64,000 nt of DNA from Isoetes taiwanensis (taxonomy: Eukaryota > Streptophyta > Lycopodiopsida > Isoetales > Isoetaceae), in contig JAJEKV010000054.1 in the NCBI GenBank assembly GCA_021234155.1, positions 1,054,001 to 1,118,000 on the forward strand. Reading direction: 5' to 3'. Made by a program: the position numbers and the translations under genes. This document shows, piece after piece, positions 5,520 to 57,971 of this stretch (within the stretch, counting starts at the first letter, position 1; each line of letters starts with the position of its first letter). The notes under the pieces are model-generated. The model saw only the letters and a program-made list of their open reading frames with translations. It made no database searches and was not told the origin of the DNA.

Positions 5520-6039
5520 GAATTGATGTCAATGAAATCAAATGACAGGGTTACATTTGTGTATGACATGTTGTGCAACAACATGGAGGGCAAAAGAGTT
5601 CATGGGCTAGCCTTGTAGGACATGACTGTTTGTGACAGAGCTTGGTACCTTGGTCTTGGGATTTCGAAGTTGGAATATCTTAAATGGAAGGCGCATATTC
5701 TATAAGGTGCTAGCAAAGCCGAGCATGTCAACCCAGGCACAATAAAGGCTTGTGCATCGACCTTAGCCCCGGAGGTTGTTTCCTCTATGTTTGTCAAGAA
5801 GAATTGTGAATCCCTACCTCATTGTAGCAGGAGAATGAAGATGACATCCAAGAAAACGTGAGGAAGTTGCCGGCAATGTTTACGAAGGCCTCCATTCTTG
5901 AGGAGGTCAAGGCAGAAGTGATGGGACTGACAGACAAGGTGGTCTCTCTTACAGGATTTCATAAAACATGGAGGCGTAGCTTCAAGGATGTGAGTATAGC
6001 AAAGAAGATTGCATTCTCCAAGTGTGACACATGCGAGAT
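5520..6039 (+). pseudogene. DUF7869-like transposase relic 1, N-terminal part
   Basis: The plus-strand frames encode FVYDMLCNN (about 5550), then VCDRAWYLGLGISKLEYLK after an in-frame stop, and from 5858 a frame ending in RSFKDVSIAKKIAFSKCDTC. These are the ordered N-terminal blocks of the plant proteins whose later part carries the LDN...NK and GHTHEDID motifs. The relic has several stops. It breaks off at about 6039, where an unrelated element starts, and the family resumes at 8227 with the IIHNKMDRAKT block. Part of the region between the CDTC block and that block appears lost. The protein is presumed to be a DNA transposase with an RNase-H-like core; this is inference from its repeated, dispersed nature. 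Confidence 0.6.
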
Positions 6040-6155
6040 AATATGTAGCATTATAACAGGGGGTTTTTTTTGTGATTTTATACGGCTTTTGGCATGGTTT
6101 TCATATGATTTCATGGGCGTATTGCGCGAGGCATACTAATCAGTATATCTAGAGT
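6040..6155 (+). repeat. Left terminal region shared with copy 2
   Basis: Homologous to 49624-49742: both run ATATGTAGCATxATAACAG, G/T-rich tract, ATTTxATGGGCGTATTGC, ending ATCTAGAGTGC. Divergence is roughly one base in six by eye. Confidence 0.8.
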
Positions 6156-6290
6156 GCACTCCCCATTTTTATTGTCTAAATTTCATATCCCCAATGGTTT
6201 ACCCCCTTTTATTTTATTTTTTTTTTTTTACTTTAGGGTTATTTTAGGGTTCGAGGGCCCAGAGATAGAAGCCGAGCATGGTTTTAGCTG

Positions 6291-6935
6291 GGTGATCCGG
6301 TGGAGCTGGTTCTGGTAGCATGATTTTAGGCTAGGTGATCCCGTTAAGCTTTTTGATTGGCATTCTTATGTGTATTTACTGGAGTGTTTGGAAATTATAG
6401 TGGCGACTGGTACTTCGAGCTCCGTCCACCCATGACAAGGCTGTTACATGCATTTCTGGTTGCATGTTATCATCCGTGGAAGCTGTATTCGCATCTTCAT
6501 CTTCTGATGGCACAGTTCGTGTGTGGGACATGTCAATTCCAATGCAGGCTGGAGGTAATTTTTCTGAAGTGCAGGTGTGCTCTTTGGGCTTGCCCAACTA
6601 AAGGGAATTTTGGGTGATCCGGTGGAGCTGGTTCCGGCAGCATGATTTTAGGCTGGGTGATCCTGTTAAGCTTTTTGATTGGCATTCTTATGTGTATTTA
6701 CTGGGGTGTTTGGAAATTATAGTGGCGACTGGTACTTCGAGCTCCGTCCACCCATGACAAGGCTGTTACATGCATTTCTGGTTGCATATTATCATCCGTG
6801 GAAGCCAGTATTAGCATTTTCATCTTCTCGATGGCACGCGTTAGGTGTGGGACATGTCAATTCCAATGCAGTGGAGGTAATTTTTCCTCGCGGTGTGCTC
6901 TTTGGGCTTGCCCAACTAAAGAGAATTTTCCTTGC
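6291..6935 (+). repeat. 322-bp tandem duplication inside captured ELP2
   Basis: GGTGATCCGGTGGAGC at 6291 recurs at 6613 and similarity continues for the whole unit, including the WD40 exon. The second unit is more damaged in the coding part (SSSSDGTVRVWD in unit 1 is frameshifted in unit 2), so the copies have since diverged. Confidence 0.85.
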
Positions 6936-7325
6936 CTAATAAGGCGACTTGCTCATCATACACTTCACCATATCACCAGCCTTTTAACATTTATTGCACC
7001 TTCTTCATAGGCAAATGCCAGGCATCGATTGGACAAACTATTTCCGTTGGATCAAAAGTCATGGTTGCTGATTCCATGGTGCTTCTTCCCAACAAACTGG
7101 ATATTTTGTTGGCTATGGGGGGTTTGGATAACCAAATTCATCTATACATCAAGACTAGTTCTGAGCATCAATTCGTATCAGCGTGAAAATTAAAAGGTCA
7201 TCAAGGATGGGTTCAGGCTGTTGATTTTTCAGAACCTGTAGTAGAGAATGGAATGCAAGCAATATTTTTTGCAAGTTGTTCTCAACATAAACATATTCTT
7301 CTTTGGAGGATCACCCCGAAGCAAG
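6436..7325 (+). pseudogene. ELP2: ELP2 fragment (Elongator complex protein 2, WD40)
   Basis: In unit 1 a frame from 6441 reads AVTCISGCMLSSVEAVFASSS, then DGTVRVWDMS, an exact WD40 strand end. From 7030 the frames read GSKVMVADSMVLLPNKLD, AMGGLDNQIHLY, then (after a stop) LKGHQGWVQAVDFSEP and FFASCSQHKHILLWRI. This order (S-S-D-G-x-V-x-V-W-D, L-A-x-G-G-L-D-N-x-I-x-L-Y, L-K-G-H-x-x-W-[IV], SxQxKxIxxW) is that of the N-terminal propeller of plant ELP2. In its intact form the protein scaffolds the histone-acetylating, tRNA-modifying Elongator complex. Here it is a fragment with stops, frameshifts and a duplicated exon, lying inside a mobile element. It is not functional as ELP2. Confidence 0.75.
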
Positions 7326-7385
7326 CTGTATTGAGTAATGACAAAGGGTCTAGTTTGAAGGGATACATTACTGGGCCAATGTAAC

Positions 7386-7634
7386 AGACCTAAGCTTGAA
7401 CTCAGGGATTGTCCTATTACTGAGGCTGGAATTGCAGCCACAGTTAGATCGTTACAATCGTTGAGATACATATCGGCCAAAGGCTATGAAGCAAGAAATA
7501 CAACTGATTTTCTTGCAATGGGGCCTTATTGGAACATAGAATACCCCCCGAGTTCTTGTAAAAGTTGTGCATATTCTGAAGTTGAAGTGCTCAAGTATTT
7601 ATGTTCATTTCAGAGCTTATACCCATCCATTTAA
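7386..7634 (+). pseudogene. COI1: COI1 C-terminal fragment (jasmonate receptor F-box/LRR)
   Basis: One open frame reads RPKLELRDCPITEAGIAATV, then SLRYISAKGYEARNTTDF and GPYWNIEYPPSS, ending at a TAA. The last LRR of plant COI1 has the same layout: PKL-x-x-L-E-M-R-x-C, then A-I-A-x-A-V, S-L-R-Y-L-W-V-x-G-Y, and R-P-Y-W-N-I-E-L-I-P. COI1 is the F-box subunit of the SCF ligase that binds jasmonoyl-isoleucine and JAZ repressors. Only about 80 residues remain, without the F-box, directly behind the ELP2 piece and in the same orientation. The nearest alternative is another auxin/jasmonate-receptor-type LRR F-box gene such as TIR1/AFB, but PYWNIE points to COI1. Confidence 0.7.
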
Positions 7635-7789
7635 GTTGCCTTGCAATTCTATAACACCCTATGCATACTTGTGGAGATGTTTGATTATTCCCCACAACAT
7701 ATGTATCCAAGATGGCATTTTTTAAATATACGACAACACATGTGCCATGGCAAAGCACATGGTTTAAGTGCTCTTCTCGACTATATTGT

Positions 7790-8226
7790 TTTAGGCAAGG
7801 CCTTGAAGGGGCCAAATTTTTTTTAATCTAACACAAACCATTACATCTAATGTTTCCAAGTGTGATATAATGTTTGTTTTTTGCCCCGAAGGGGCAAATT
7901 TTTTTTAAAGTTATACATTACACACCTTAAAATTAAATTCCCCCTTAAACCCCCTTTTGTTTGGGTGCATATTCACACGGGGGGTGATGTAGGGCAGCGA
8001 GAGCCCCTATAATTATGTTTTGTACGTACAAAATCAACACCATATAGTATGTTACCTGAAATCTTATAGTATTTTTTAAATCTTGTTATACAGTATCATA
8101 ATTTCTATACATCCATACCCCACAAACGAGGAATTTTGTGTACGGTGTAGATTAAGGAATAAGGGGTGAATATGCCTATCCAACAGCTCTCGATGCCCGG
8201 AGTCACCCCCCGTGTGAATATGCCAT
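7790..8226 (+). repeat. Right terminal region shared with copy 2
   Basis: Homologous to 52295-52683. It contains two GC-centred hairpins (GGCC..GAAGGGGCC near 7798 and GCCCC-GAA-GGGGC near 7880) each followed by a T tract, a CCCCCTTAAACCCCCTTT block, then the inverted pair CATATTCACACGGGGGGTGA (7968) / TCACCCCCCGTGTGAATATG. This copy lacks the outermost bases present at 52684-52691. Confidence 0.8.
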
Positions 8227-28165: not shown

Positions 28166-28668
28166 TGTTGGAAATGACAAAATTATGTGTCATGTGATAT
28201 TCTAATCTATGAGAAGCAGTGGCAGTAGATTAGAGTTGTTAAATGGTGTCATGTTATTCAAAGTTAAGCAGTTGAATGGGGGAGACCTATGAGAAGCAGT
28301 GGCAGTAGGTCAAAGTCAAAGTCAAAGTCAAAGGTGGCGGGCACACCCTACCCGGGTGTTGCTGGGCTCGCTAGAAACACACAGACACCCCCTGCCCGCC
28401 ACTTAGGGTTTTGGGTTGACTGGTCAACGGGTCAAAGTCAACGACAGCTGGAAGATAAGGACAGCAGGGCATCCTATTATTAGGCAAGTTGAAAAACTTT
28501 CTATATGAAGGGCATGCACGATTTGACAAGTGGATATATCCAGGTCATAGAAAATATGTGGCTGAGTGCAGATACAGGTGCGTGTATGCAAATATAGGTG
28601 CGGGAGGGGTTTGAAGGAGACAGAGTCTTGGCATACTTGGGTTCGAATCCCAAGCTCTGATTCTAACA
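28166..28668 (+). repeat. Copia 5' LTR
   Basis: TGTTGGAAATGAC...GATTCTAACA, 503 bp. Contains a (GTCAAA)n run at 28311-28332 and, 12 bp before the end, a hairpin CTTGGGTTCGAATCCCAAG whose centre equals the polymerase III box B consensus. Confidence 0.95.
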
Positions 28669-32625: not shown

Positions 32626-33162
32626 TGTTGGAAATGACAAAATTATGTGTCATGTGATATTCTAATCTATGAGAAGCGAAGGGCGATGATTAGAGTTGTT
32701 AAATGGTGTCATGTTATTCAAAGTTAAGCGCTTGAATGGGGAGACCTATGAGAAGCAAAGGGCGTGGGGTCAAAGTCAAAGTCAAAGTCAAAGGTGGCGG
32801 GCACACCCTACCCGGGTGTTGCTGGGCTCGCTAGAAACACACAGAAACCCCCTGCCCGCCACTTAGGGTTTTGGGTTGACTGGTCAACGGGTCAAAGTCA
32901 ACGACAGCTGGAAGATAAGGACAGCAGGGCATCCTATTATTAGGCAAGTTGAAAAACTTTCTATATGAAGGGCATGCACGATTTGACAAGTGGATATATC
33001 CAGGTTGATGAGAAAATATATATATATATGACTGATTGTCATAGAAAATATGTGGCTGAGTGCAGATACAGGTGCGTGTATGCAAATATAGGTGCGGGAG
33101 GGGTTTGAAGGAGACAGAGTCTTGGCATACTTGGGTTCGAATCCCAAGCTCTGATTCTAACA
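32626..33162 (+). repeat. Copia 3' LTR
   Basis: 537 bp. As the 5' LTR but with a 34-bp block containing (AT)n at 33006-33039 and base differences such as at 32671-32687. Confidence 0.95.
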
Positions 33163-48405: not shown

Positions 48406-49162
48406 GGACTTTAGAGCTTGCCTCAGGAATCCTGGGCTATGATCTAATTAATCTCAGTGAGGAAGACTTCTTTATGCCAGAAAACGGAGAATCTTTGTCC
48501 TCCTTTGGAGGATCTGGAAGGGCAGGAACTCCTTCATCTTTAATTATAAAATTATTCCACCGGAAGGAATAATTAAATAGCTTCAATATGATGTTAGGTG
48601 GATTCAAGAGATTAATGGTTAATTCTATGATTGCTGGTGCGCAAACTCAAATGGAGGAAGATGGATCTAAACACGAACAATGAATGGATAAAGATATTCG
48701 GGGCAGCCAAAGTGATGGAGCATATGGAACAGTGCGGATGCGGATGCTGTTGCGATCAGAATTACAATATCAGAAGAGAATTAATTTGCCAGGCAAAAGA
48801 TAGCAGGGACCGGTTCAACATGGCTAAAGCAAAATCATGTATGTGCATCTACTGCACTTTTCATGAGACGACAAAAGGAAAGGCAAGAAAGATCAAGAAT
48901 TTCAATCTGAAAACTTACCACTGAATGCTCTCTCTTTCGAAAATTATGACAAGGACACAGACTCTATTTAAACTTAGCAAGGTTTTTATCAGTTTTTTTA
49001 TGACACCATGAACAAGTAAAGGTTGATCCCTGATATGCACTCAGGTTTTTTGGATCACCTATCTATTTTAGGGTTCCTCCTCCCTTGAAAAAGGAGTTCC
49101 TGTAAAAGTTTTCACTTATATATATATATAGAAGCCTTCAATAAAAAAAAAAAAAAAAAAAA
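48406..49162 (+). mobile_element. 5'-truncated LINE with split poly(A) tail
   Basis: Insertion into the endonuclease, bounded by ACTCCAGCCATGA at 48393-48405 and 57972-57984. The frame RIFVLLWRIWKGRNSFIFNY (48489) is the C-terminal end of a plant L1 ORF2. The 3' region has the usual GGAGTTCCTGTAAAAG block before AATAAA and a run of about 20 A (49143-49162). The poly(A) next to the right-hand target duplication is at 57948-57970, so the 8.8 kb between is a later guest in the tail. Confidence 0.8.
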
Positions 49163-50050
49163 GTCCGTTTAGATACTAAACTAGACTTTATGCCCTATTA
49201 ATCATTTGATACATAGGACATCCAATTTGCAGCCCCAAATACAGTTAGGTGTCATCTGTATTCAGGCCTTGAACTGAGCCTTTTAGACCATCATGAATAA
49301 ATATTGTTTATAAAGACGCTTGAGTACTTCAGCTATTGATATTATGAACATGTGCCAGCAGAACAAGAAATATAGTTTTAACTATGTGTAAGTTAAGCAT
49401 GTCAAATAATAAAAACAAGTACAATTGAATTGTAGTGCAAATAGCTCTGCATTTTATCGCTGTCAAAATATGGAAAACCCTGTTCCTCTGTTCAAAAAGA
49501 CAAGAAATATACTAATATTTGACCAAATATATCCGTATTTCAACATAGTAAACATGGTAATTATGCCTCTTACTATTTATTGATTCAACTTGAACTCAGG
49601 TCTAGCTATTAGCCACTAGTATGAATATGTAGCATAATAACAGGGGGTTTTTTTTGTATTTTTGTACGATTTTTCCAATGGTTTTTATATGATTTGATGG
49701 GCGTATTGCACAAGGCCTACTAATTAGTATATCTAGAGTGCGCATTGTATTTGCATAGGCTTGAATGAATTTTAATGCCTCTTTTCAATAGTGTAGACCC
49801 ATATATCATATATTTCTCCGTTAAGTTCTATTTTTCGTATTACATTTTATTTTGCTCGACATGCAAAGCTCGAGCAGCTCATTTTAGGGTTCTTGTTAAC
49901 TCCAAAATTAGGTCTCTAGGTTATGGTTTTTGCTGTAAGGGATCTCGATCTCGAAAATCAAAGCAAAATCTGCCGAGTTTGTGGTGATTCAGTGCAGCTT
50001 TATTATAATCCCACAACTCAAATCTTCGGCTTGATTGATTAACCCGTTGG

Positions 50051-50825
50051 AACATAGATTTGGCGTTAGAAAAAAGAGGTATAAAAGCTAATCCGACAGA
50101 ATGGAGAAGGTCTCTAGGTTTTGTTTGTGCCGTTTGGTTATTGGAGCTCTGGACAAAACACAGGCATTCAATTCAGCTGGAGATTTCGTCCTTGTTATAC
50201 GGTGAACTAGCTTCCACAAAGGTATTCAATTTTTGCATTTCTTATGCCAGGCCATTCCGCCATATTCCAGATGGATTTGGACGAGTCCAAACAGTTGCAG
50301 TTGGATTTGGGCTGAGGGTGCTGGCAGTAAGAGCCGTGATCACAAAGCGTGTCGGTTTTGCATCTGTTTTTGTAAGCTGCCATGTTCGAATGCTGAAACC
50401 CTAAAGAGTCAATCATACGCACTTAGCAGAAGTGAAAGGGGGTCAGAACTGGGTACATGCCAACGGATCTAGAATGTGGCTTCCAGGTGGTGGTACTCAC
50501 TTCAAACGTGGCGCATCTGACTATATCCAGAGGTATTCCTCTGCAAATGTGTTTGATAAGACTTGAGTTTAGAACATGCTATGGAAATTGTAGGGAATTC
50601 ATGCAGTGACTGATCCTGTTGGCCAGCTTCATGATACAGGCTCGGAAGAATGACAACTGATGGAAATGGGGACTTTTTAACAGCCAAAAAAACCAAATAC
50701 AGTTCGCTCTAGAGCGTGGCATTCCTGCAATGGTTGCAGTTTTGGGAACAAAGCGGTTGCCTTATCCCAGCCAATCATTTGATATTGTGCATTGTTCACG
50801 TTGTCGAGTTGATTGGCATGAAGAT
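50051..50825 (+). pseudogene. PMT-type S-adenosylmethionine methyltransferase fragments
   Basis: A leader with CTC-rich/TTAGGGTT 5' UTR character (49870-50050) precedes frames giving [20 protein letters not shown] (50452) and [38 protein letters not shown] (50709-50826). The plant Golgi PMT family (QUA2 relatives, probable pectin methyltransferases) has V-F-P-G-G-G-T-Q-F-x-x-G, E-R-G-I-P-A-x-x-A-V-M-G-T-x-R-L-P-[FY]-P and H-C-x-R-C-R-V-x-W-H, in that order; the last favours the PMT24-28 clade. Only the methyltransferase start is present, separated by intron-like sequence. Not functional. Confidence 0.75.
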
Positions 50826-52416
50826 GGTAAGGTTCAAGATGTGATTTATGGTCTTGTTTGGAACTGTTTTTGGTCTCCTCTTAGCATTTGCACGTGCATA
50901 CATCTGTGAAATGGAAAGAGAGAATTACTTCCTTGTTTCTCTGTTATGGACGTCTTATAAAAGGGACATCTTATGGACATCTCCCCTGCTGTGCCTGGCA
51001 TCTATCAGAGGTCCATGTAGTTTGCTGTCCCAGTAGTGTAAATCTTGAATTTTGTCATATTGAGATCCTGAGGCAGCTCCAAGTTCCATTTGTTTCATGC
51101 AGCCTAACTGAAAGATGCATGGCTGAATCATTCTGCAAATGATATGACAGCTCCTTGGTAATAGTCAAACCATCAGATTGAAGTTGGCATGATGGGATTG
51201 CAAAAGGAAGTTCATTTTTTTTAAGACTTAACATTTTGTGCTTTTCAAGGGATGCACCGATGGCATTCAAAAGTGGGTTTTCCATTATATGTACGAAGGA
51301 GAGATGAAACCATCCAGGGGTTCTACTAGAGGATTGATTCTTCCAGAATTGGAGGACTGCATTTTCTTTTCGTTTGAGTTCCATTCCTGCTTAAAGCACC
51401 TCAGCATACCCCACGTTGAGGGCGAACGAACTTTACTTGGTAACTTCAGTTGCCCAAGAGCTATGCTTAGTGGCTTTGTAGAGAGATTTATAGCCTACGA
51501 CAATTAAAGAAAGCACAGGTCTTCATAGAGATTCTCACCATGAGAGGCTGGTGGGTAAGGACAGGTTGTTTTGGAGTATTATAATTTTCTCCTTACTTTC
51601 CTGATTGGAGAGTACCACTTATAAATCCTCCATGTAAGTCAGTAGGAGAATGCTGAGAGGAGGTTACGCATTCCCAAATACAGTTGCAGGTGTCTTGAAT
51701 GAAGTTGTATTAGGTTTTTATAGAATAAAACATCGCCAGTAGCATCATGGTGCTGCAAAATGGCATTATAATGTAGGGGCAGTAAAAGAGTTCTGCACTT
51801 GACTTTGTAACACTTCTTTTGATTTATTTTCTTTGCTTGTTTGCTCTTGTTTTCTCTTTCTTTAGCACTTTAGCCTCGTGCAGTGTTGAGAATAATGACC
51901 AAAGTCAGCATGGCCAATGTGTGGCTTTTCTTGTCATCTAACAGGCTTGGAAAAGAAAATCAAAATAAGAAACTTTGATACATAGCCTAGAATTCGGGAT
52001 CTTTTTTGAGATTTGGCAAAGTTGGCTCGTATTTGTTAACCTAGAATCCAGATTTTTTTTCGAGATTCAGCAAAGTTGGTTCTTATTTGTTGAAGCTTAT
52101 TCTTCCGTTCTCACTTATTTCATTTACTTCATGTAGTAGAATATTTGCTATGCTCGTATTTTCTACCACCTTATTGTAATTTTGGTAAGCTCCCATGATC
52201 GAATGCAGATCGAATGCAGAAACCATAAAGTAGCCCTAATATCCGGCTACATGTTTTGCATGTTTTATGTTTTTATGTATGTTTGCTTTTTTTAGGGCCC
52301 GAAGGGCCCAAATTTTTTTTTTAGTACAACAACCAACATATAACTATCATTAACATGAATTAACACAACCATTGGGTCTAACACATTTAAATTAAAATCC
52401 CCCTTAAACCCCCTTT

Positions 52417-52691
52417 GGTTTGGGTGCATATTCACACGGGGGGTGACGTAGGGCAGCGAGAGCCCTTATAATTATGTTTTGCACGTATAAATTCCACACC
52501 ATATTGTATTTTAGTTGAAATCTTATAGTATTTTGCAAATCTTGTTATACAGTATAGCAAATTTTGTACTTGCATACCCCACAAACGAGGAATTTTACGT
52601 ACGGTGTAGATTAAGGAATAAGGGGTGAATATGCCTATCCAATAGCTCTCGTTGCCCGGAGTCACCCCCCGTGTGAATATGCACCCAAACC
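52417..52691. repeat. 275-bp MITE-like unit with perfect 31-bp inverted ends
   Basis: GGTTTGGGTGCATATTCACA...GTGAC at 52417-52447 is the exact reverse complement of 52661-52691. The same unit, lacking its outer ~8 bp, ends copy 1 (7961-8226). It may be the true end module of the carrier element or a MITE that joined it early, since both copies have it at the same place. Confidence 0.8.
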
Positions 52692-53459
52692 ACACAGATA
52701 AAATCACACAGATATGAGCTACAAAAACCAGTGAAAATTTGTTCATAAACTTATAATGATGCATCATGCTTTTGATAAAGTCACGTGAATATGAGCTAAA
52801 AAACCAGTAGAAAGTTTGTTCAGATAACACCAGTTTAACTTCATCATGCTTCCGCATCCTTTTGTGCTCAACAAAAACACATGGAGGAAAAGAACCGGTT
52901 ACCTGTATTAGAACCATAAGCAAATTAGCCTTGAAAAAGGGTAAATGCCTAAGCTAAAGCAGGTAAGCAATAGTCCTTTTCGGCTTAACGCCCTTCACCA
53001 TCTAAGAAACGAATGGTAATTTCAATCTTAAGAGTACACATGCCAACCATCAATTTTCAGTAATATATTAGCTTCTGCTACAACATGTCAGCATATTAGC
53101 AAGACTGGCTAGCATGTCCTGTCCATCACTAATGTATAATCATAACCAATTTTACCAGTAGTTAAATAGATTCACACGCTTCCCCAATACATCTCTGCAT
53201 GCTACATGTTTAACAACATATTCTACTTTGAAGGTTAAAGCACATTTCAGGAAAAATAAGGCATAGCAAAAGCATATCTATGTTACACGAATGCAAGGCA
53301 CATCTGGCTAACAATATGGTCTAAGAAAATCCGATCTGTCATTTATGGCACCTGGCTTATTTTTATCTACTGTTCTGCCATGATCTGAGGCTAGCTCCTA
53401 CACCTCAAAAGGAAAACAGTTATAATCCTAAATTATTTTGCGAATATGTTTCCACATCT

Positions 53460-53671
53460 ATTCAGTAGATCTAAATATCTCAATTCGTTGCAGTATTGGT
53501 GATATCAGCATCATGCTCCATATCAACTTGTTTTCTCTTTGCATATCTGTCATCAGTTGCTGGGATGGAGAAATCTTCAACAAATTCTTCCTGATTTTCC
53601 AGTGTAAGCTGCATGTATTGCGCAGGCTGCTTATCTTGTGCAGGCTGACTAGCTTGCAGAACTGTGCCCAT
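53460..53671 (-). pseudogene. First-exon copy of an unidentified gene (repeat A)
   Basis: The minus strand encodes MGTVLQASQPAQDKQPAQ, then LTLENQEEFVEDFSIPATDD and VDMEHDADITNTATN, the same as 57318-57128 in repeat B. Upstream (53720-53870, minus) lies a 5'-UTR-like leader with AAACCCTAAAGGC. It lacks the last 10 bp of the exon and the splice site present in B. Confidence 0.45.
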
Positions 53672-54482
53672 GGCTGCCTTGCCGCTACTACCAGCATCAA
53701 TACGAACGGGTTTATGAATCGCCGGTAAGGGATACTCTCATATTAATCAGTGAAAACTCTAGCAACAATTCCATCCAACCATAAGGGCAGCAAGAGCTCA
53801 TGGATCTCCGTCGATATGTAACCGACTGGCCGCCTTTAGGGTTTGCTTCCATAATTTTGCCCTAGGTTTCTTCACGTTTGCACTATGCCATGTCATTCCA
53901 TTATTTTTGATAAATATTCACCTATTGACAATGTGCCTTTATTCTAAGGTGGTTAATAGCAAGCAAAGCGTATTAATCAGATCACGATAATATGTACCCA
54001 AAATAGATTATCCAACTATGTTGTCTGCTAACATATAATTTATACCAGCATAGGAATATAGATGGTCTTATTGTGTACTCTTAAGTGCACAGATACCAAG
54101 GTGGTCTTTTCTCCAGGGCTTGCCCATAAACAAGTATTATATTGCATTGTCTAAATGCCAAGTCACCTTAACTTATAAATGACTTTTCTTACTAAACTAC
54201 TTATGGTCCAATTTGATATGTGCTGAGCAACATGAAATTTTGTCATATTTGTACCTTGCTCAGTATCTCATGTCATCCAATAGGCAACATAACAATATAA
54301 AAAAAGCCTTCCTCCTACCGTAGCTTTAGGGGGGCACCTGTTTAATCATCACCTAAATTACTAGGTAAATCATTGTGTTACAGCAAGGAGAGTAGGGCCC
54401 TGCTGTCACACAGGGGCCCTACCCTCACTATATATCTCTACTCTTAAGTATAAATATCGTAAAAGCATAATTTAAAACTTAC

Positions 54483-57318
54483 TTGAATTTGTGTAGTAGT
54501 CTTATAAAATCGTCATCGTCCAGTTCGTATGGTAGATCAGAAAAGTATCATATATCAGATATTGTAGACTCAACTGTCATATGACAGAGTAATAAAGTAT
54601 TTGCTCACAGGGTGAAAGCATGCTAGGGTGTACCATCTAAAGTTCTTTTTAGGGAGTGCAAAACTACCCAAAAAAGTACCCAGCACTGGGTACTGGGAAC
54701 TTGCATAAATGTCTCAATAAACAACAAGTTTGAGAGTTGATTCATTAATTTTAGTCTTTAATAGTATTGTTATCCTCTAATACTATAGATTGACATGTTA
54801 TTGACCTTCAATTCAAAAGTTTTAAATCGATTTTAATGGGAAGAAAAAACAGAAAGTACCAGTTTTAAAAGTACCCAGTGAAGGTACTTTTGAGGGTTCC
54901 AAAAGTGGTACACCGTAGCATGCTTTCACCCCACACCATGTGTGAGAGGACATAAAGTGGTAGTAGTGTGTTTTTGTTATTGTCAACCACCCACCAAGGA
55001 AACACCAACACCATTCAAACCTTGGTAGGTTGTGTGTACCGTAGTACAATGATAAGTTCATCTTTTAGTCATAAATCACATTTTTTCCACATGAATTCAT
55101 AAGTCCTACACTTCAAACGTTTGTTGAGTTACATACCATTTATTTGCCAGCTCTTTGATCCATGAATTTGTGATGTCAAAATGTTCGTCATTTTTCTGTA
55201 TCTCTTTGGGGCAGTTCTCCTTCCTCCTCACTTGCTTTGTAACATTACCATTCTTTTAATATATTGCTGACACAGTTCTTCAAAAAAAAATACCAGATCA
55301 GATAAGTGTGCACCTAGACTCATACCACCAAATGTGCGAGGAGATAAAGTGGTAGCGTTTTTTGGTTATTCTCAACCACCCACCAAGGAAAAACCAACAC
55401 CATTAAAATCTTGGTAGGGCTATTGTATTATTTGTTACAAGCACATAATACACATATACGTTGTGAGTAGAAAAGTACTGAAATTCTTTATGAACAGTAA
55501 TATCCTGAAGTTCGTATATAAATAACCAGTCTAGTATCATACCATTAGTTATCTGCATAGATCAGGGTGATTGATGCGTTGTGCTGTCCTCAAATGCAAC
55601 GACCTTGTTGCCCTCTTTAGTTATTTGTTGTCCCTTTAGTGATAACATAAAACCTTGTTGTATTGCTAGAATCGTAATGCATCGCAGCAAGCTCTTTGAT
55701 CTACATGCTGGTACTGTCCACTTTGTCATCAGTAATAATCTGTACAAGTTTCTGCAACACATTAAGATGTTTAGTCAAGAGATATGTTTAAAATGAAAAC
55801 ACCTAAGCTCAAGACAAGGTTCTGGTTAAACCAAGAAACTGGAGTAACATTAAAAAACCTTCAAGTCCGTTTAGATACTAAACTAGACTTTATGCCCTAT
55901 TAATCATTTGATACATAGGACATCCAATTTGCAGCCCCAAATACAGTTAGGTGTCATCTGTATTCAGGCCTTGAACTGAGGCTTTTAGACCATCATGAAT
56001 AAATATTGTTTATAAAGACGCTTGAGTACTTCAGCTATTGATATTATGAACATGTGCCAGCAGAACAAGAAATATAGTTTTAACTATGTGTAAGTTAAGC
56101 ATGTCAAATAATAAAAAACAAGTACACTGAATTGTAGTGCAAATAGCTCTGCATTTTATCGCTGTCAAAATATGGAAAACCCTGTTCCTCTGTTCAAAAA
56201 GACAAGAAATATACTAATATTTGACCAAATATATCCGTATTTCAACATAATAAACATGGTAATTATGCCTCTTACTATTTATTGATTCAACTTGAACTCA
56301 GGTCTAGCTATTAGCCACTAGTATGACAAAGCACATAAAATCACACAGATATGAGCTACAAAAACCAGTGAAAATTTGTTCATAAACTTATAATGATGCA
56401 TCATGCTTTTGATAAAGTCACGTGAATATGAGCTAAAAAACCAGTAGAAAGTTTGTTCAGATAACACCAGTTTAACTTCATCATGCTTCCGCATCCTTTT
56501 GTGCTCAACAAAAACACATGGAGGAAAAGAACCGGTTACCTGCATTAGAACCATAAGCAAATTAGCCTTGAAAAAGGGTAAATGCCTAAGCTAAAGCAGG
56601 TAAGCAATAGTCCTTTTCGGCTTAACGCCCTTCACCATCTAAGAAACGGATGGTAATTTCAATCTTAAGAGTACACATGCCAACCATCAATTTTCAAGTA
56701 ATATATTAGCTTCGCTACAACATGTCGACATATTAGCAAGACCGGCTAGCATGTCCCTGTCCATCACTAATGTATAATCATAACCAATTTTACCAGTAGT
56801 TAAATAGATTCACACGCTTCCCCAATACATCTCTGCATGCTACATGTTTAACAACATATTCTACTTTGAAGGTTAAAGCACATTTCAGGAAAAATAAGGC
56901 ATAGCAAAAGCATATCTATGTTACACGAATGCAAGGCACATCTGGCTAACAATATGGTCTAAGAAAATCCGGTCTGTCATTTATGGCACCTGGCTTATTT
57001 TTATCTACTGTTCTGCCATGATCTGAGGCTAGCTCCTACACCTCAAAAGGAAAACAGTTATAATCCTAAATTATTTTGCGAATATGTTTCCACATCTATT
57101 CAGTAGATCTAAATATCTCAAACCTGATTATTCGTTGCAGTATTGGTGATATCAGCATCATGCTCCATATCAACTTGTTTTCTCTTTGCATATCTGTCAT
57201 CAGTTGCTGGGATGGAGAAATCTTCAACAAATTCTTCCTGATTTTCCAGTGTAAGCTGCATGTATTGCGCAGGCTGCTTATCTTGTGCAGGCTGACTAGC
57301 TTGCAGAACTGTGCCCAT
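54483..57318 (-). pseudogene. Unidentified intron-bearing gene piece
   Basis: Exon-like blocks on the minus strand: 57318-57128 (MGTVLQASQPAQDKQPAQ..., donor at AATCAG-GTTTGA); 55751-about 55562 (KLVQIITDDKVDST, then IKELAAMHYDSSNTTRFYVI, two stops, acceptor TTGCAG); 55195-55137 (NDEHFDITNSWIKELANK, donor GTATGT); and about 54540-54483 (LPYELDDDDFIRLLHKF, donor GTAAGT). The second and third share I-K-E-L-A. I recognise no family. Its acidic, helical blocks and leader suggest a host gene carried here with its promoter region; duplication of the promoter and first exon produced repeats A and B. Confidence 0.4.
54610..54931. mobile_element. 322-bp MITE with ~26-bp inverted ends
   Basis: GGGTGAAAGCATGCTAGGGT...ACC and the reverse complement of TGGTACACCGTAGCATGCTTTCACCC match with one substitution over 26 bp. 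CACA flanks both sides. The interior is AT-rich with a GTACCCAG/CTGGGTAC palindrome (54679-54696). No coding. The flanking 54940-55420 has a duplicated AACCACCCACCAAGGAAA block (54984, 55376). Confidence 0.75.
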
Positions 57319-57950
57319 GGCTGCCTTGCCGCTACTACCAGCATCAATACGAAACGGGTTTATGAATCGCCGGTAAGGGATACTCTCATATTAATCAGTG
57401 AAAACTCTAGCAACAATTCCATCCAACCATAAGGGCAGCAAGAGCTCGTGGATCTCCGTCGATATGTAACCAACTGGCCGCCTTTAGGGTTTGCTTCCAT
57501 AATTTTGCCCTAGGTTTCTTCACGTTTGCACTATGCCATGTCATTCTATTATTTTTGATAAATATTCACCTATTGACAATGTGTCTTTATTCTAAGGTGG
57601 TTAATAGCAAGCAAACGTATTGCACTGTATCTGGATAATATGTACCCAAAATAGATTATCCAACTATGTTGTCTGCTAACATATAATTTATACCAGCATA
57701 GGAATATAGATGGTCTTATTGTGTACTCTTAAGTGCACAGATACCAAGGTGGTCTTTTCTCCAGGGCTTGCCCATAAACAAGTATTATATTGCATTGTCT
57801 AAATGCCAAGTCACCTTAACTTATAAATGACTTTTCTTACTAAACTACTTACGATCCAATTTGATATGTGCTGAGCAACATGAAATTTTGTCATATTTGT
57901 ACCTTGCTCAGTATCTCATGTCATCCAATAGGCAACATAACAATATAAAA
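55863..57950. repeat. Long direct repeat, copy B (empty site)
   Basis: 2.09 kb. At 56325 it reads straight through the position where copy A is interrupted (CACTAGTATG then ACAAAGCACATAAAATC). Other differences include a 10-bp indel at about 57122. Confidence 0.85.
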
Positions 57951-57971
57951 AAAAAAAAAAAAAAAAAAAAC

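Follow-up and report, generated by a model that had tools for sequence, protein, structure and literature searches.

Canonical Helitrons, Helraiser among them, capture gene fragments, carry a 3' hairpin and form perfect head-to-tail circle junctions in the available text of their description (PMC4778049), and Helitron2 elements such as FoHeli of Fusarium combine an asymmetric terminal inverted repeat and a hairpin with non-autonomous copies and joined-end forms in the available sections of theirs (PMC5148889). All of these traits have counterparts in the repeat family described here. Replitrons, which have been reported in lycophytes and use a HUH endonuclease, lack terminal inverted repeats and have short direct terminal repeats of 5–11 bp, as far as the available part of their description goes (PMC10741241). 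We analyzed 64,000 nt of the genome of Isoetes taiwanensis (assembly GCA_021234155.1, contig JAJEKV010000054.1, positions 1,054,001–1,118,000; hereafter the window), in which a first-pass annotation had recognized a mobile element carrying fragments of ELP2 and COI1. This element, E1 (6041–8223), and a second copy, E2 (49625–52692), belong to a family that we regard with moderate confidence as a non-autonomous, rolling-circle-like DNA transposon, whose 3' hairpin would prime its own copying before the copied end is attached by microhomology joining. Judged from sequence, its copies combine an exact 5' start, in most cases preceded by A, with a hairpin ending in GTGTGA and a tail of variable length that repeats the element's own sequence in inverted form, and they show target loss, microhomology at most examined 3' junctions, end-to-start dimers and intron-bearing cargo. 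A literature search with thin coverage of subscription papers turned up no description of the family.

Ends and size of the family

The genome searched comprised 1,658,258,908 bases in 1,110 contigs, with the window on contig C1061; other fetched loci are numbered with the prefix L. A 26-mer from the 5' end matched 7,773 sites with at most one mismatch (3,884 + 3,889; reversed control, 0), and a hairpin loop motif matched 4,682 sites with at most two (2,350 + 2,332; control, 0). This sharing of the 5' end and the loop motif is far beyond chance. A motif spanning stem and tail, which can occur up to twice per element, had 12,486 matches with at most one mismatch (control, 0). The ends that the first-pass annotation had considered common to E1 and an element at 49624–52691 are indeed shared (5' end, 87% over 118 bp; 3' segment, 91% over 302 bp), with the boundaries of the second element now refined to 49625–52692. 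The terminal features of the two copies are as follows.

6041..8223, + strand: entire E1, delimited by the constant 5' boundary across copies and by empty-site comparison
6041..6157, + strand: conserved 5' end of E1, ATATGTAGCATWATAACAGGGGGTTT..., common to 49625–49741 and containing the 26-nt pattern with 7,773 genome matches
7883..7895, + strand: mini-hairpin of E1, GCCCC-GAA-GGGGC, from the predicted fold, the type of site that precedes most tail stops
7967..8004, + strand: stem arm S of the E1 3' hairpin, from inverted-repeat analysis
8005..8185, + strand: hairpin loop of E1, 181 nt, inverted in some copies (copy comparison)
8186..8217, + strand: stem arm S' of E1, whose end is the inferred 3' end of the mobile unit (end-to-start junctions)
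8218..8223, + strand: inverted tail of E1, ATATGC, 6 nt, its final C possibly target-derived (arm–tail comparison)
49625..52692, + strand: second copy, E2, from its shared ends with E1 and an empty site in the window at 56326–56332
49625..49741, + strand: 5' end of E2, aligned to the 5' end of E1
52295..52309, + strand: mini-hairpin of E2, GGGCCC-GAA-GGGCCC, from the predicted fold
52416..52463, + strand: stem arm S of E2, from inverted-repeat analysis
52464..52644, + strand: hairpin loop of E2, from copy comparison
52645..52676, + strand: stem arm S' of E2, ending in GTGTGA, from end-to-start junctions
52677..52692, + strand: inverted tail of E2, 16 nt, from arm–tail comparison

Two further repeat pairs were seen in the window. 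Positions 1–387 and 1649–2036, spaced by about 1.65 kb, form a direct repeat with 98.5% identity that could be the terminal repeats of a small element, and 28166–28557 and 32626–33019 form another (95% identical, about 4.5 kb apart) that could be the long terminal repeats of a retrotransposon.

The 5' end of the copies is precise, ATATGTAGC. Alignments of copies to the 5' end of E1 begin at 6038–6042 in 33 of 35 cases, with position 6040 accounting for 26; of the two exceptions, one is the window itself and one a locus that was cut short. From 41 distinct 5' ends listed with flanks, five were set aside as tandem-like; in the remaining 36 the base before ATATG is A in 31, C in 4 and G in 1, with T at −4 in 21. 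Counting E2 (TATGA), the preceding base is A in 32 of 37 ends. Assigning this base to the target is compatible with all five reconstructed empty sites, although unambiguous only in L030 (C), and window position 6040 (A) is probably a target base, with E1 beginning at 6041.

The 3' end folds as a hairpin of about 230 nt with a 181-nt loop and a stem of 48 nt in E2 and 38 nt in E1, at folding energies well separated from those of shuffled sequences (z = −10.4 and −7.2). Its outer end reads ...CCCCGTGTGA. Junctions at which the end CCCCCCGTGTG runs directly into the start AATATGTAGC numbered 169 in the genome (at most two mismatches; control, 0), with 51 perfect among the 100 matches listed, and because of them we take the mobile unit to be ATATGTAGC...GTGTGA. 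Such junctions can come from circles or concatemers. The two ends are further related by an asymmetric terminal inverted repeat, in which the 5' AATATGTAGCATAATAACAGGGGGTTT matches an internal 3' repeat at 20 of 27 positions in E2. Large inverted repeats, along with the loop inversion considered below, are typical of foldback elements, and a cut-and-paste DNA transposon of that type, with long inverted repeats of which the 3' one was misaligned here, would produce both. We consider this highly improbable: among the copies examined none has the inverted repeat anywhere but at its 3' end, the ends share just the 27-nt imperfect repeat with its seven mismatches, and target duplications are absent from all five empty sites.

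Inverted tails, insertion sites and a possible mechanism

Past GTGTGA, many copies continue into an inverted copy of the hairpin-adjacent arm and then into unrelated target sequence. In a survey of 75 sequences (73 loci and the two window copies), 55 had inverted arms and the tail could be resolved in 51 of these, with lengths of 4–598 nt: 10 tails did not exceed 25 nt, 10 measured 26–80 nt, 27 measured 81–130 nt and 4 were longer. Most tails stopped just before a GC mini-hairpin. Leaving out two of the 55 that had no such motif, the stop fell 0–40 nt before it in 35 of 53 copies, earlier in 11 and within or beyond it in 7; stopping at a structure in the template is expected if the template of the tail was single-stranded. 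In 24 of 44 copies, the tail was identical to the copy's own arm outside the stem. The stem arms of the window copies have kept mismatches (87% and 92% complementary), which makes ordinary conversion of the whole inverted repeat unlikely. The start of the tail, ATATG-N13-GGGGGTTT, resembles the 5' end: the first 27 nt of the E2 self-copied sequence, from GTGTG, are AATATGCACCCAAACCAAAGGGGGTTT, compared with AATATGTAGCATAATAACAGGGGGTTT at the 5' end including the preceding A. Self-copying would therefore recreate ATATG-N13-GGGGGTTT downstream of GTGTGA.

The tails might instead be inherited terminal repeats, decayed or trimmed, of a Helitron, canonical or not, whose 3' end is fixed in the ordinary way. 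Such an element would fit the gene capture, the 3' hairpin, the end-to-start junctions and the lack of target duplication, and the genome holds 1,813 candidate Helitron Rep domains, of which all 150 that were scored exceeded the cut-off. A comparison of each tail with its own arm and with other copies also offers it some support, since in 12 of 44 copies the arm or tail of another copy was nearer than the own arm, which came strictly first in 11 and tied in 21. However, tail ends vary among copies and are followed by unrelated target, the target resumes directly past the tail at most empty sites, and arm and tail agree in the 24 copies above although the stem arms differ. On balance we find this explanation unlikely.

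Comparison with empty sites indicated that insertion is accompanied by loss rather than duplication of target sequence, with no duplication at any of the five reconstructed sites. E1 replaced 109–117 bp of a host repeat, as judged against six of its relatives. The empty site of E2 lies inside the window, where a near-identical duplication (98–99%) comprises 49161–54305 and 55863–57953; E2 is found only in the first of these, and the second therefore preserves the site before insertion, revealing a loss of about 5 bp and a possible short filler. Losses at the other sites were 8–14 bp (L013), 6–10 bp (L028) and about 160 bp (L030), the ranges stemming from overlapping microhomology. The target resumes directly past the tail at four of the five sites and after an ambiguous 2–5 nt at E2. 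Microhomology at the 3' junction, scored by eye, amounted to 1 nt for E1, about 2 nt (ambiguous) for E2, 5 nt for L013 and 4 nt each for L028 and L030. Repeated local motifs, likewise found by eye at the 3' junctions of L021, L053, L055 and L074, look like templated filler.

A precise end opposite a ragged one, the latter with microhomology and minor loss of target, would also fit a LINE-like (long interspersed nuclear element) insertion. In that case the family would be a retroelement on the other strand, reverse-transcribed by target priming from the constant end; the ragged end would correspond to the 5' side of the RNA, and a 3' end of the complementary DNA that snapped back on itself would yield the inverted tail. 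The retained intron described below does not discriminate, because an antisense transcript would keep it too. We nevertheless judge a retroelement improbable, as random truncation along the body is missing (all 12 copies picked by their 5' end alone, L021–L032, reach the arm and 10 of them the loop), end-to-start junctions in such numbers are unexpected and no empty site shows a target duplication.

The orientation of the hairpin loop relative to the 5' end varies. Pairing 100 listed 5' ends with 56 of 100 listed perfect loops (contigs up to C110) and dropping 4 of 33 pairs that were more than 9 kb apart left 29 pairs less than 3 kb apart, 20 in the same orientation and 9 inverted. In the fetched set the loop was inverted in 8 of 70 copies, 40 of these loci having been picked by a query that favoured the normal order. 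Inversion could arise by rolling-hairpin transfer or by recombination between stem arms. A parvovirus-like rolling-hairpin replicon, in which the hairpin is transferred and flipped in each round and tails come from variable resolution nicks, would give both the flip and the tail, and we allow it a small chance of being correct. A hairpin was seen at one end only, though, no Rep-like gene was found in the copies examined, and end-to-start dimers fit circles better than hairpin-ended linear molecules.

We therefore return to a rolling-circle-like transposon with a self-priming hairpin. Cleavage between A and ATATG by a single-strand endonuclease, most likely a HUH enzyme, would release the plus strand in single-stranded form with its 5' end fixed, and cutting at GTGTGA would leave a 3' OH within the hairpin. 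A host polymerase would then extend this end on the element itself, usually stalling at the GC mini-hairpin, and microhomology end joining would attach the copied 3' end to the target, in the manner of T-DNA (transferred DNA). The self-copying would also re-establish the 3' cutting site, ready for a further round. Jointly, these steps would account for the precise end, for the tail and where it stops, for the loss of target and for the dimers. Cargo would enter as genomic DNA, with fusions such as that of ELP2 and COI1 arising between copies, through template switching or end joining. Human Pol theta can extend stem-loops in vitro and then join them, leaving inverted repeats, according to the available text of one study (PMC11292364), and by analogy the plant enzyme may act likewise at the ends of this family. 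More tentatively, the family may represent a type of rolling-circle end whose 3' cutting site is rebuilt at each insertion by self-primed hairpin copying up to the mini-hairpin stop, with host microhomology joining, rather than the transposase, finishing the insertion.

Several observations weigh against this account. Inverted arms were missing from 20 of the 75 sequences, several of which stop inside or just before the hairpin, and copies of that kind need trimming prior to joining. The copies used for 3' ends are a non-random sample, having been picked mostly by similarity to E1 and E2. The 12 tails with a nearer foreign arm or tail, some of which may be misaligned, count here as well, and many copies carry no information on the origin of the tail because subfamilies are nearly identical. 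End-to-start junctions could also form when a new copy inserts at the GTGTGA–ATATG boundary of an older one, and simple self-priming would not lead one to expect an inverted loop. At L017 (1476–2154), the inverted arms run into a reversed family 5' end, so that two elements seem joined head to head, an arrangement outside the model. Finally, no enzyme was found for the family among ten cargo open reading frames (ORFs) and six Rep loci, as detailed below.

Captured genes and the search for an enzyme

The cargo of the two window copies comprises the following segments.

6289..6929, + strand: tandem duplication of 322 bp in the ELP2-derived segment (6289–6611 and 6611–6929), 97% over 195 nt at offset 322 by repeat search and 92% by BLAST
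6344..7378, + strand: ELP2-derived segment, sense, frameshifted and with stops, collinear with the longer ELP2-like copies L093 and L094 and identified via L008
6877..7010, + strand: GT...AG stretch of 134 bp in the ELP2 segment, read as a retained intron from its sequence and collinearity with L093 and L094, the exon limits being judged by eye from the protein reading
7392..7634, + strand: COI1-derived segment, sense, from translation and from relative L007 compared with 3ogk
50408..50684, + strand: E2 cargo including a fragment of a putative methyltransferase (PF03141), from relative L020, which is 98.6% identical here

Both host genes named by the first-pass annotation were recovered, and in the same sense orientation. 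The ELP2 cargo of sister copy L008 matches Elongator protein 2 (8avg, 1.7e-16); at 7386–7640 an 85-residue stretch reads as COI1 in translation, and the COI1 cargo of L007, a sister copy in which it is longer, matches Arabidopsis COI1 (3ogk, E = 5.8e-63). For E2, an ORF of L020 overlapping the cargo stretch matches Methyltransf_29 at 2.5e-17. Intron retention, which had been proposed as a check, is suggested by the GT...AG stretch; as this is present in L093 and L094 too, the cargo was most likely captured as genomic DNA rather than spliced message. L093 and L094 may be the ELP2 gene itself or its relatives.

The suggestion of multi-gene capture holds insofar as E1 contains two captured host genes, but their joint capture is improbable. 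Both occur together in the E1-like copies L001–L005, whereas other fetched copies with the same 5' end contain ELP2 without COI1 (L008, L009 and L095) or COI1 without ELP2 (L006, L007, L010 and L011, with only the last part in L012). Because the two genes sit apart in these copies, E1 is probably a fusion of two single-cargo subfamilies. The fusion point, 7391/7392, falls at AGCTTG, where L008 (ELP2) reads ...CAGAGCTTGCTT, L007 (COI1) ...GGAAGCTTGAAC and E1 ...CAGACCTAAGCTTGAAC; the presence of this motif in all three suggests that copies were united by template switching or by microhomology joining. ELP2 beside COI1 at an ordinary locus was not seen, the parent genes not having been placed with certainty. 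In L003 (477–3651; C228:97376–100550), an E1-type copy is followed by a second partial copy starting from window position 7135, whose identical inverted loop and truncated end mark it as a local tandem repeat of the 3' half.

No transposase was found among ten cargo ORFs scanned in family copies, none of which encodes a Helitron-class Rep-helicase, and neither family end was present in about 4.5 kb upstream of six of the 150 listed Helitron Rep loci. A Replitron-type partner did not turn up either, no search having been aimed at Replitrons, which are candidate sources of the enzyme on a par with Helitron Rep. What looked on contig C28 like an autonomous element of 9 kb, with its 5' end at 146499 and a loop at 137226, was discarded, since this locus, L092, consists of several separate copies. 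Between them, an ORF at 5647–6090 of L092 (− strand) with SGSGTTT...GRNCIAI recalls, by eye, N4/N6 DNA methyltransferases. An esterase or channel protein in the cargo of L022 and L025 was likewise rejected, two L025 ORFs having given no Pfam match. The available main text of the genome paper contains no occurrence of 'helitron' (PMC8566536).

If the proposed mechanism is right, one end of the element is made precisely by its own enzyme and the other by a host repair polymerase working from a hairpin programmed for it. Records of self-priming and end joining would then number in the thousands in this genome, and single-strand integration could be studied from them in a plant without a transgene. 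The family shuffles gene fragments, and its 5' end alone has thousands of close matches in 1.66 Gb. With the partner enzyme and its circles in hand, the final step of rolling-circle integration could be tested directly.

Comparison with known systems

The first-pass annotation held that the ends fit neither Helitrons nor Pack-MULEs. For canonical Helitrons and Pack-MULEs this stands, but the asymmetric terminal inverted repeat, the 3' hairpin and the end-to-start junctions give the family a partial resemblance to the rolling-circle class. Pack-MULEs have long terminal inverted repeats and a target duplication of about 9 bp, whereas here there is only the 27-nt imperfect repeat and no duplication. 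Foldback transposons carry long inverted repeats at both ends, in contrast to a repeat confined to the 3' end. LINEs and other target-primed retroelements include many copies randomly truncated along the body, unlike the 12 reaching the arm. Canonical Helitrons (Helitron1) start with 5'-TC and end in CTRR-3' with a hairpin 10–12 nt inside, while these copies start ATATGTAGC and the unit ends in GTGTGA at the base of a hairpin of about 230 nt, with no fixed 3' junction in the family. Canonical Helitrons insert between A and T without duplication; here duplication is absent too, but about 5–160 bp of target is lost and the target base after the 5' cut varies.

Helitron2 shares the asymmetric terminal inverted repeat. 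Its 3' termini are defined and, in some groups, so is its insertion site, in contrast to the variable self-copied tail and target loss seen here; it is described as inserting between TTTT and T or C (PMC5148889), and its 3' end is fixed. The E1/E2 family has T at −4 only as a preference, A at −1 and variable 3' ends. Helitron2 has hairpins at both termini; here the one at the 3' terminus, the end covered by folding, is clear. The short direct terminal repeats of Replitrons may be compared with the ATATG at the element start and after GTGTGA, although self-copying would explain the 3' ATATG too. The target duplications of 2–8 bp given in the available text (PMC10741241) are absent from the five empty sites.

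Outside transposons, Agrobacterium T-DNA junctions likewise combine deletions, filler DNA and microhomology in the available parts of two studies (PMC8395108, PMC10923293). T-DNA differs in being no transposon and in having neither a terminal hairpin nor a programmed self-copied tail. Its 5' end is relaxase-bound. Parvovirus terminal hairpins similarly provide a 3' hairpin that serves as primer, as the available text of one paper describes (PMC11575299). The E1/E2 family, by comparison, is a genomic transposon, with a hairpin seen at a single end and no Rep or capsid genes seen. Parvovirus hairpins also alternate between flip and flop. Because defining features of canonical Helitrons, Replitrons (the target duplication), Pack-MULEs and foldbacks are missing and no enzyme was found, we file the family as a variant of rolling-circle-like transposons outside any named family.

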